Positions 47,741 to 51,442 of a stretch of 64,000 bases of DNA are shown piece by piece (position 1 is the first letter of the stretch; every line of letters starts with the position of its first letter). The DNA comes from Trichodelitschia bisporula (lineage: Eukaryota; Ascomycota; Dothideomycetes; Phaeotrichales; Phaeotrichaceae): NCBI GenBank assembly GCA_010356995.1, contig ML996688.1, forward strand, positions 1,302,001 through 1,366,000, read 5' to 3'. Position numbers and translations under genes: made by a program. The notes beneath the pieces were generated by a model, which saw nothing but the letters and a program-made list of their open reading frames with translations, was not told where the DNA came from and did not search any database.

Positions 47741-48516
47741 TTACTCCACATCGCCCTTGCCCTCGAAATTCTCGCCGGCAACGAGGTCGGGGATGTCATC
47801 ATCATCATCCTCGTCATCTTTCTTCTCACCCTCCCCACCCTCCTTCTTCTGCATGTTCTGGTACGACTCGGCCAGCTTGCGCAGCGACGCGAGCGAGTCG
47901 GGGCCGAGCTGGTTCAGGATGCCAGGGACGAGCTCAGTGAGTTCCTTGTCCTCACCGTTGCCGTAGATGGCGAAGGTGTTGGCGGGAACCGAGGCGTGGA
48001 CTACGTCGCTTGTCAGAACCGCAAACCCCAGCAACCGTGGCCGATGCTCCAGCATCCGCACAGTCCAATCATGTATGAAGCTCACCCTTGGGGGCCGCGA
48101 AGTGAATCACGTTGCCATCGCTCTTGAACATGTTGACCTCCTCAATCGCCTGGATGGGCTGAACGTTCAGCTTCTTGAGCGCACCCTGCAGCTTCTTGTC
48201 GTCGGTGCCAGCGCTCTTGTGGACCTTCTTGACCTTCCGCCGAGGAGTGCCCTTGCCGCTACCGTTGTATTAGCTCGAGCACAGAGTCCCGCTGTCCGGG
48301 ATGCGGGGAAGAGTTTGGAAAGAGGCATCGAGGGTGGTGCGGTGTCGAACAGGAGAAGCGACTTACCCTACATGCCGAAGCAACGTTAGCAGCTACGCGA
48401 CATAAAAGCTTTTTGCATCACAACATATGACAACATATGATTTGTAGACGAGGGTAGAACGTGGACTCACCAATGCGGACATTGGCCTGCATGCGAGCCA
48501 ACTTTGCTTGATCCAT
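47741..48516 (-). CDS. egd1: Nascent polypeptide-associated complex beta subunit, EGD1 (159 aa), with a 1-nt exon
   Basis: Exons are 48516-48471 (46 nt), 48367 (1 nt), 48258-48086 (173 nt) and 48000-47741 (260 nt), in all 480 nt. The protein starts [19 protein letters not shown], continues with the ribosome-binding [10 protein letters not shown] motif (about residues 21-30), then the NAC domain ([33 protein letters not shown]), and ends in an acidic [14 protein letters not shown] tail. NAC beta pairs with NAC alpha and shields nascent chains at the ribosome exit. Without the single G at 48367 the frame is lost between RI and GKG. Both introns around that base have consensus donors (GTGAGT, GTAAGT), branch points (GCTAAC, GCTAAT) and TAG acceptors, so two splicing events are the simplest reading. 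Confidence 0.93.
48367..48367 (-). other. Single-nucleotide exon of EGD1
   Basis: On the minus strand the order is acceptor CATGTAG, then G, then donor GTAAGT. The G completes a Gly codon: ATT G + G + C gives Ile-Gly. The flanking introns are 48470-48368 (103 nt) and 48366-48259 (108 nt). Confidence 0.75.
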
Positions 48517-49390
48517 GATTGAGGTTGGTGGGGGGTTGCTAGGACGGGGCGGATCCTATTCCGAGAGACATCGTCAGCGACTCGAAATAAAACTGGTCAA
48601 ACAGGGTGAGGGAGCCTACCTAGCGGGGTTTTGTGATGGCAAAATGGAGTGGTTGCAGAGGTGGAGTGAAGGTTGGAGGTAGGTGAAGTCGGCAAGGCCA
48701 CAAGAAACTCCGAATGTGCGCCTCCATGCGGCTCGCTTAACGCCAAAATTCAGCAATTGTGGCGGTGCACTCTGCGGGGTACTGCCCTCGAACCTGACGT
48801 CAAACATTTGATATGGCTCACATTCGTTAGGACAATAGCCTATAAAGTTCTCTCGCTGTTTTCTATCGGCGTATAATTTGGAAAGAAGAGTGGTGGCGTA
48901 AATGGGTAGAGAAGCATAGTGCCACTCTTTCTTAGGCGACATACCTCGTCATTGTAGGCAATAGGTGACGGGAGAACCAACCGCACAATGTGGTTCGGAG
49001 AATAGTCTATATAGTTACTGCTCTACCTTTTCGCATTTATGTAGGTACTCTCTCTTCTAAATCAAGCGTTCGACACGACATCTACAGTCTCAAAATATGC
49101 AAGATGCAGCAGCCAAAAGCTCCACGTTATTGACGTTGATGAGCACATCAGGACATACTCTCTATGACGCACACTATTGTGCAACCAACCCACCGTGAAA
49201 CGAATGCAGCTCATAGGCACCACACCGCTTCCGGAATCATCCAAAGCCGAACCAAACCGGAACGCCAGCGCTATGCATAACTACAAGTTATAAACGACAA
49301 AATTCAAGCGTCAAACCGCGCCCCGCGCCAGCAGCAAACACCACACCACGGACGCCTCCGGTTGAATATGTACAAAAGGAGAGTAGGGTA
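48517..49390. other. Intergenic, EGD1 promoter and neighbour 3' end
   Basis: No supported coding frame. The part next to 48517 should hold the EGD1 promoter; the rest includes the 3' UTR of the fibroin-3-like gene. Confidence 0.55.
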
Positions 49391-50463
49391 TCAGATGTCG
49401 CGCCACGACCCCTGCGTCGCCCCTTGGCTATCGTACGGCCGTACCTGGCCGTTATATGGCCGCGCCTGGTTGCCATATGATTGCGGTGGCTGGTCATACG
49501 CAGGCTGAGAAATGCCGTTGTACGGCCGCGGCTGGTTCGGGTACGGCCTGGGTGATTGGGACGGTTGGTACGCGTTATAGGGTTCAGCGGGCGGTTCGTA
49601 GGCCGTTGACCCAGAGGGCGCATATCCAGGCGAACGTGGGGGGATGTACGGATCCTTGCGACCGTACTGTTGGTTCCCGTATCCTTGCTGCACCGGATTC
49701 GGGGTCGCTCCGCGATATCCAGAGTGGCTATCGGCATGGGGACCCGCTGGTGGGCCGCCATATGGACTGTAACTACGCGGGGCACCGTTTCTGAGGAATG
49801 AGTCTTGTTCCTGAAAAGGCGAGCGCGGACCCGGAGACCTTGAGGGAGTCGGTGAGACGAGGTTAGGTGATGAGGCGGCACCTTGCTCTTGGGGCTTCAG
49901 CTTGTCTAATTCGTGGCTCTCTCCTTCCTCGAACACGGCGACCTTTTTGCTCGTCGCGTCTTGCCAGCTCGGCATTGCGGGCAGGGAATCTTCGTGCACC
50001 TTTCTTCCCGATTCAAACGTTGCGAATTGTGGGGGAGCTGAGTAGACGGGCGCGGGCGCGGAGTGGTATTGTTGATTGTACATGGGCGGTGGATGACCGT
50101 ATGGGGTTGATGGCACGGAGTTGAGATGCTGGTGTCCTTTGTCCTTCTTTCCAGATCCACAGCAGCCGGCGCAGCAGCGAAAGCAGCAGCATGCGCACTC
50201 GGCCCCGCAGCAGAGGCACCGAGCGAGACACCAGAGCAGCGAGAGGGCGATGAGGGAGACAACGATGATTGCGACAATCACTGGCCATCTGAGGGAGGTT
50301 AGCACTGCAACCTCGAACGCAAGCACAAGTGCGCATCGCAGAGCGGGGACGAAGCTCACTTGCAATAGGTCTTCTCCATGCACTTGTCCCAAGACGAAAA
50401 AGTGTTTTTCACCCCCGTTGCAGCGCCGATGACGCCGTCCTGACGAATGTGTAGGATGGCCAT
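49391..50463 (-). CDS. Fibroin-3-related Cys-rich single-pass membrane protein (333 aa)
   Basis: Exons are 50463-50360 and 50288-49391, with a 71-nt intron (GTGAGC...CTCAG); joined length 1002 nt in frame. The start MAILHIRQDGVIGAATGVKN is at the ATG 50463; the frame is open upstream but that ATG has a good context. After a 35-residue N-terminal segment (SWDKCMEKTYCK) there is one transmembrane helix (WPVIVAIIVVSLIALSLLWC), then a Cys cluster of ten or so residues (CLCCGAECACCCFRCCAGCC) likely to be palmitoylated. The tail of about 240 residues is disordered, Pro/Tyr/Gln/Ser-rich, with PYNG and PPQSYG type repeats. The family is common in Pezizomycotina, sometimes labelled fibroin-3 related, with unknown function; plasma membrane or septal location is plausible but inferred. 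Confidence 0.82.
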
Positions 50464-51442
50464 GCTGGCGAAGGTGGACTCTACTGACGACCAGCGACGA
50501 GTTTGGTGCAAGTAAAGTGGACTCTGGGAGAGTAGGAATGCTGTGAAATGAGCGAGGTGATGAGGGAACGTTGCACGCCGTGACCCTCTACGCAACGTAC
50601 CGTACAGTTGATAGGATGCGCGCTCAGTTGGAATCTGGGGACGAGGCTGCTCGGTCCGCCACTCAAGCGGCGGGAAGCAAGGACAAGTGTGGCCAACCCC
50701 TCCCCTCCCCTTCCCAATGGCTGACATAAGAAGTACAGTATCCTTGCTCACTCGAAACACTCACCCTGCAACTCTTTCCCCTACAATTAATATGGTGACG
50801 CTTCATCCCATTTGCCAAACCATTGGTCTAAAGCAGAGCTAACTACTTAGCTCATCGACTTGGCCCTTTGACGTTCGACCGTCAAAAGCCAAAAAGGAGA
50901 AACCCCCTTTCCGGAGATGCGATCCGTACAAGTGCATATTTCACTTCATACGAGTCCAGATGGGTAGCCCGGGACATATGGAAGAAGGCTGTGATGCACC
51001 GCAGCCATTGTTACATCCATCTATAAATGCATCATTTTTGGCCCGTTACCACCTGCAAGGCCGGCGCGGGAAGCCCCAGGCTGACGACAGATCGGAAGCG
51101 GGCCACCCGTGTCAGCACTTAGCGCACGTTTCTCCATCTTGAACGGCTTTTGTTCAAACTGAATGCGGACTACCGAGTGCGGGCAGCATACGTAGTAATA
51201 TCTTAGCATCATGCAATTATGCTACGTAAACTTGGAACCGCAATTAGCTCAAGCAGCTTGCTTCTGGAAAAGCACCCCAGACAGGCTGTGCTTGATAAAT
51301 CTACGCAATGGTCTTTCGTTGAACGTACATCATGACTGCTATGCATCCCCCCGCCAAATAAAGCCATGGCAGACAAGACCCTCGCGCCTACGTACGCCAG
51401 AGTCCCATGCAAAAGGCAAAAGACAAACTGAGCCACAACTAA
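50464..51442. other. Intergenic
   Basis: This gap lies between the start of the fibroin-3-like gene and the 3' end of Sti1. No supported coding frame. It holds the promoter of the former. Confidence 0.55.

Follow-up and report, generated by a model that had tools for sequence, protein, structure and literature searches.

A single-nucleotide exon in the NAC beta gene EGD1 of Trichodelitschia bisporula, with a probable ancestry in Pezizomycotina

How the first exon of EGD1, the NAC beta gene of the dothideomycete Trichodelitschia bisporula, is joined to the rest of the coding sequence (CDS) without loss of the reading frame is the question raised by this locus. The gene lies at 48516-47741 on the minus strand of the window, which is the whole 64,000-nt stretch analyzed here (positions 1,302,001 to 1,366,000 of contig ML996688.1, assembly GCA_010356995.1), on the contig called C2 in a 25.65-Mb genome of 30 contigs. 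The encoded protein matches PF01849 with 56.5 bits (cut-off 21.3), and among solved structures it matches BTF3 chains (E 2.4e-49), which we take to be mammalian NAC beta on ribosomes. As expected of an EGD1/BTF3 protein, it combines a NAC domain with the N-terminus RIGGKGTxRRKxK, presumably the ribosome-binding motif of NAC beta. The closest named model among the matches listed is that of another dothideomycete, Saccharata proteae (89%).

The two exons flanking the difficulty are separated by 212 nt. When ATTG is joined straight to CGGC, the frame is lost after the residues RI and a stop follows after 45 aa, so the break of frame that the first-pass annotation had described does occur. The 212 nt contain the sequence CATGTAG-G-GTAAGT, in which one base stands between an AG and a GT, and each of the two introns delimited in this way has a donor, a branch-like element and an acceptor. 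The base, a G at 48367, is required for the frame and yields a conserved residue. The structure read from the DNA is given below.

48471 to 48516, minus strand: exon 1 of EGD1, 46 nt, from the ATG to CGC ATT G, ending in phase 1
48368 to 48470, minus strand: intron 1, 103 nt, GTGAGT...CATGTAG
48385 to 48389, minus strand: putative branch site CTAAC of intron 1 (in TGCTAAC), position 82 of the 212-nt interval
48367 to 48367, minus strand: exon 2, the single nucleotide G, second base of the GGC codon for the first Gly of RIGGKG (residue 16)
48259 to 48366, minus strand: intron 2, 108 nt, GTAAGT ... GCTAATAC ... GGTAG
48269 to 48273, minus strand: putative branch site CTAAT of intron 2, position 198 of the 212-nt interval
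48086 to 48258, minus strand: exon 3, C GGC AAG GGC ... CCC AAG G, holding the first part of the NAC domain
48001 to 48085, minus strand: intron 3, 85 nt, GTGAGC...ACGTAG, an ordinary intron whose junction served as a control
47741 to 48000, minus strand: exon 4, including the stop codon

With the single G included, the CDS amounts to 46+1+173+260 = 480 nt and encodes 159 aa with the sequence RIGGKG, which is also the reading in the BTF3 chains of solved structures. The same one-nucleotide exon, with introns of 103 and 108 nt, a CDS of 480 nt and the RIGGKG product, had been proposed in the first-pass annotation, and frame, splice sites and shuffled sequences all uphold it. Its description of the signals as consensus holds for the donors and TAG acceptors of both introns; the branch-like CTAAT of intron 2 is a weaker match than CTAAC. 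We conclude that the one-nucleotide exon of EGD1 is real, and we are very confident that two ordinary GT-AG introns, separated by one exonic G, are removed here in succession. Sequence, frame and splice signals are observed directly, and from these we infer that T. bisporula actually splices the transcript in this way.

Chance was assessed with 20,000 dinucleotide shuffles of the 212-nt interval, from which the first 6 and the last 3 bases were excluded. The string YAG-G-GTRNGT appeared in 21 of the 20,000 shuffles, and in 4 of them when a CTRAY 5-40 nt upstream was required as well. The bare AGGGT was found in 1,026 shuffles and any AG-N-GT in 6,878, so those strings alone would be unconvincing. 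Enumeration of GT-AG two-intron solutions, with the ends of exons 1 and 3 fixed, introns of at least about 30 nt and an internal exon of 1-30 nt, yielded two that keep the frame, and the single G is the only one that gives IGGKG (as RIGGKG). Four single GT-AG introns spare exons 1 and 3 and hold the frame, at the price of 1, 3, 15 or 16 extra residues. The first of these, an intron of 208 nt (48466-48259) that uses a donor 4 nt downstream (TGA/GTCCAC, the slash marking the splice site), would dispense with the micro-exon and produce RIG-D-GKG with an extra Asp, the smallest change to the protein that any of the four offers. Scored against the 9-position U1 consensus only, this donor matches at 2/9 positions, compared with 6/9 for the donor of intron 1 and 7/9 for that of intron 2, and the intron would leave the TAG-G-GTAAGT in the middle of the interval unexplained; we regard it as highly improbable. 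A scan of the genome for CTAACN{5,30}AGGGTAAGT returned 2 sites, namely EGD1 and C13:561969 (with GAG ahead of the G), and the reversed pattern returned 5, which gives no hint of a genome-wide excess of one-base exons. As far as this one donor and branch pattern goes, the scan suggests no sign that the arrangement would be common in T. bisporula.

How would such an exon be spliced? Since a single base separates the acceptor AG from the donor GT, simultaneous use by two spliceosomes is unlikely, which argues soundly for the stepwise removal that had been suggested for this gene. Each intron would be removed by intron definition, in turn and in either order. If intron 1 were removed first, the intermediate would read ATTGG/GTAAGT, and if intron 2 were removed first, it would read CATGTAG/GCGGC; both orders would lead to the same mRNA, ATT GGC GGC (Arg-Ile-Gly-Gly-Lys-Gly). 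Both predicted intermediates keep complete splice sites. All incompletely spliced products examined end early, after 45 aa with the G skipped, 32 aa with intron 1 kept and 16 aa with intron 2 kept, and their stops lie 81, 224 and 277 nt, respectively, upstream of the exon 3/4 junction. Stop codons at such distances upstream of an exon junction normally trigger decay. An extension compatible with two successive introns is that incomplete two-step splicing tunes NAC beta output via nonsense-mediated decay, and the broad retention of the exon described below hints at constraint. Any frame-breaking intron would have the same effect, however, and retention may merely reflect the difficulty of cleanly losing one intron; we consider this extension unlikely.

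Is the same junction troublesome in related fungi? Pattern scans for the EGD1 DNA of relatives found 89 stretches in genome contigs and 39 in viral contigs, none from a relative, and the protein databases were therefore read as a record of gene-finder behaviour. Three protein searches were made, with the T. bisporula EGD1 protein, a composite Sordariomycete-like sequence and a composite basidiomycete-like sequence as queries, and the best 120 matches listed for each were considered (total matches 4,710, 2,848 and 4,251). All queries carry RIGGKG, which disfavours the listing of deviating models. Pooling gives 296 distinct proteins, of which 177 have an NCBI source and 119 do not. The motifs RIGGKG, RTGGKG, RSGGKG, QTGGKG and RIGGRG were accepted as correct, and P0089 (RTGGKG) hence counts as correct.

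Among the NCBI models listed, the motif is lacking in 41 of 62 in the first search (42 of 62 under the stricter pattern RIGGK); the second search added 55 models, 49 of which lack it, making 90 of 117 for the two. The third search added 60 NCBI models, two of which deviate, from Aspergillus terreus and Peziza echinospora, both Pezizomycotina. Deviation at the junction of the one-base exon thus affects 92 of 120 listed models of Pezizomycotina and 0 of 57 of other fungi. Membership was presumed from the names; ten names of Pezizomycotina were checked in the taxonomy and 10/10 belong. At the intron-3 junction, the control, 3 of the 120 models deviate, including one for which the pattern found nothing. 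These counts bear out the earlier expectation that automatic annotation misreads EGD1 at this place.

The listed proteins without an NCBI source behave differently: the motif is intact in 58/58 in the first search (there as RIGGKG itself), 82/82 in the first two and 119/119 in all three. The comparison of 0/82 with 90/117 deviating proteins gives a Fisher p of 2e-32, a descriptive value as the sequences are related. Judging from their full-length open reading frames on mostly short environmental or read-archive contigs, these proteins would come from spliced RNA or intronless copies. The Trichoderma evansii model P0196 reads RTGTGKG, and a close counterpart, P0175, which has no NCBI source, reads RTGGKG, with 99.2% identity downstream. 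One UniRef entry, P0136, is labelled as firefly (Photinus pyralis) BTF3. It shares 86% identity with the Sordariomycete-like query, begins with the fungal ADVQERLKKLGQAG and reads RIGGKG; it looks like a fungal transcript within an insect data set.

These models bear on two of the alternatives. The one-residue insertion that the 208-nt intron implies is the type seen in 41 of the 92 deviating models; on the other side, it splits a motif that is intact in BTF3 and in the 82 non-NCBI proteins. A sequencing or assembly error near the junction, masking an ordinary frame-keeping intron, could create the same frame problem through one wrong base, but the same junction is troubled in 92/120 models from other genomes and both inner splice sites have branch-like elements of their own, so that the probability of such an error is close to negligible.

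The shape of the errors is informative as well. If exon 1 ends in G/GTRNGT, a gene finder unable to handle a one-base exon could rescue the frame by taking the GT at +5 as donor and joining it to the C of exon 3; the result should be RIG-X-GKG, X being encoded by an RNC codon (I, T, N, S, D, A, V or G). This rule fits 36 of 41 RxG-X-GKG models (T 16, I 10, D 8, N 1, A 1), with the misses H 2, E 2 and K 1; against a codon share of 0.475 the binomial value is 8e-8, under a crude codon null. In ten models, the GYV class, exon 1 and the G run on into GTAYGT with the start of intron 2 retained, and in nine, the S-GKG class, the end of intron 2 is retained as AG/C GGC. Eight models of the x-GGKG class place the end of intron 1 and the G on exon 3, and in 7/8 of them x is as the AG/G/C join predicts (NCA or NTA); the start of intron 1 is retained in seven models. 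The 34 class labels beyond RIG-X-GKG include three on models already labelled and thus add 31 models, so that 36 + 31 = 67 of 92 follow the rules. Colletotrichum offers three models with three different faults: GMF (start of intron 1), GYV (exon 1, G and intron 2) and A-GGKG (end of intron 1, G and exon 3). By hand, the residues ANNYACRVS of P0058 (Plenodomus lindquistii) can be coded, among many ways, as GCTAACAAYTAYGCNTGCAG/G/GTRAGT, i.e., branch site, acceptor, G and donor, with the part NYACRVS as TGCAG/G/GTRAGT.

These classes also concern a further alternative, a single 211-nt intron cut one base past the canonical donor (ATTGG/TGAGT...TAG/CGGC), which uses a non-GT donor and makes the right protein. 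Its product is correct, and the mature mRNA read alone would be identical to that of the micro-exon. TG donors, which are non-canonical, are very unusual. Such an intron would leave both the internal CTAAC...TAG-G-GTAAGT and the relatives' GYV and x-GGKG classes to coincidence; we hold it to be extremely improbable.

How old is the exon, if it is shared? Deviating models occur in at least eight classes, Dothideomycetes, Eurotiomycetes, Leotiomycetes, Sordariomycetes, Lecanoromycetes, Coniocybomycetes, Orbiliomycetes and Pezizomycetes. By taxonomy, Orbiliomycetes and Pezizomycetes stand outside leotiomyceta, and the simplest explanation is a single origin before the living Pezizomycotina split; Saccharomycotina and Taphrinomycotina lie outside this sample. 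The one-base exon of EGD1 is thus probably ancestral in Pezizomycotina, which is the weakest part of our case. It is likely that it predates the split of the living classes, persists in most of them and is wrongly annotated in about three quarters of their listed models. A pair of introns in phases 1 and 2, separated by one base, could be an intermediate of a one-nucleotide intron shift. Were either intron lost, an ordinary intron in phase 1 or phase 2 would remain, as may be predicted for the 28 Pezizomycotina species with an intact motif.

Several points weigh against this reading of the comparative data. The comparative case consists of peptides, and the error classes were set up after the data had been seen, which makes their fit a consistency check on non-independent sequences and not a blind one. 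The GYV class is supportive and no proof, being equally expected from a single phase-2 intron. Outside the rules stand 25 of the 92 deviating models, namely the five RxG-X-GKG misses, five that read RIGKG and 15 unlabelled ones including P0058; the five RIGKG models (P0035, P0071, P0092, P0098 and P0157, all Pezizomycotina) lose one Gly, for which the rules give no account. RIGGKG or RTGGKG is read by 28 of the 120 Pezizomycotina models, and these may represent correct annotation of the exon or species in which one intron has been lost. Among the 82 non-NCBI proteins, taken above as products of spliced transcripts on mostly short contigs, two have contig sizes of 5.2 and 15.5 kb and seven have none stated. 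The outgroup control is the weakest one, as the best 120 of 4,251 matches span 219 to 205 bits and outgroup models with insertions could fall below; two Pezizomycotina models with RIGIGKG still appear in that list, at 206 and 208 bits. As to depth, Pezizomycetes contribute a single deviating model, with four others correct (P0030, P0050, P0060 and P0270, which we take to be Pezizomycetes), Orbiliomycetes contribute the odd models P0035, P0080 and P0109, with a predicted label on P0109 only, and the sole Coniocybomycetes model, P0102, has no predicted label.

Is such an exon without precedent? The first-pass annotation called one-nucleotide exons very rare, which is fair in general; conserved plant cases (PMC8831610) and one Fusarium case (PMC12940212) had already been described. 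Single-nucleotide exons are conserved in most land plants in APC11 and VPS55 (PMC8831610). As in EGD1, one base stands between two introns, is essential for the frame and is absent from annotations (PMC4674806, PMC8831610); wide conservation, a feature of the plant exons, has strong indirect support from protein models in the case of EGD1. The plant VPS55 donors read GTRAGT and that of intron 2 of EGD1 reads GTAAGT; the APC11 base is A in Arabidopsis, whereas the EGD1 base is G, in a fungal NAC beta gene. The plant exons are backed by reporter constructs, RT-PCR and RNA-seq, while that of EGD1 is read from sequence. Another likeness is found in CYP621A of Fusarium (PMC12940212), likewise a filamentous ascomycete, with AG-G-GT, a G as middle base of a Gly codon and a conserved motif. 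Nearly all gene models of CYP621A are wrong at the exon, as are most EGD1 models. CYP621A is one P450 subfamily with 20 orthologues, and its exon is present in RNA reads, whereas EGD1 is near-universal and its exon appears to span the classes of Pezizomycotina. As the origin of the CYP621A exon, Nelson and Syed (PMC12940212) propose the loss of a base rescued by a cryptic AGGGT, not an intron shift. In the snoRNA hosts of Candida (PMC5033589), fungal introns also lie one base apart, and in one cluster two removal orders give the same product; these hosts are non-coding, so that, unlike in EGD1, no reading frame is involved. A one-base exon between group II introns has been described in a fungal mitochondrial rRNA gene.

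The comparison with stwintrons made in the first-pass annotation holds as an analogy. Like stwintrons, the EGD1 interval is a complex fungal intervening sequence that would need two consecutive reactions and is missed by annotation (PMC7138796, PMC9024468, PMC5639578, PMC6616335). In a strict stwintron, a splice element of one intron is created only after removal of the nested intron (PMC7138796), and some stwintrons can be read in two ways (PMC9024468). Stwintron introns are nested, whereas those of EGD1 are each complete and follow one another with a single exonic base in between. A strict stwintron was rejected, as the GTAAGT of intron 2 and the CATGTAG of intron 1 are uninterrupted and either intron could go first. 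A stwintron in the wide sense, of the Lipomyces type nested near the donor (PMC7138796), was rejected because the EGD1 introns are consecutive, and recursive splicing with a zero-length exon (AG/GT) because the frame-keeping product still contains one G. Among the papers listed by searches of the open-licence literature, no account of a one-base EGD1 exon came up. One-base exons are a known kind; what appears to be new is the EGD1 case, its fungal breadth and the extent of misannotation.

Some features around the gene were noted in addition. By eye, 48556-48619 on the minus strand (CTAG/GTAGGC ... GCTGACG ... AATAG/GATCC) was recognized as a possible intron of 64 nt in the EGD1 5' untranslated region. 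Adjoining EGD1 on the same strand is a 398-aa open frame (stop to stop, 49391-50587), in which a hydrophobic stretch rich in cysteine precedes a long Pro/Tyr/Gln-rich tail that has RPYNG-like repeats. A second NAC-domain gene, matched as two pieces (L002, L003) at G000:C2:1751114-1751309, lies about 400 kb from EGD1 and is presumably NAC alpha (EGD2).

If the reading given here is true, a core translation-linked chaperone of a whole fungal subphylum would rely on a one-base exon being used properly, and, of the deposited EGD1 models examined, most would be off by at least one residue beside what we take to be the ribosome-binding motif. It would be the most widespread fungal single-nucleotide exon known and a natural test bed for the spliceosome at abutting introns. 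It would further provide a constitutive case, replicated in many species, for the study of intron order, exon persistence and the intermediates of one-nucleotide intron shifts.
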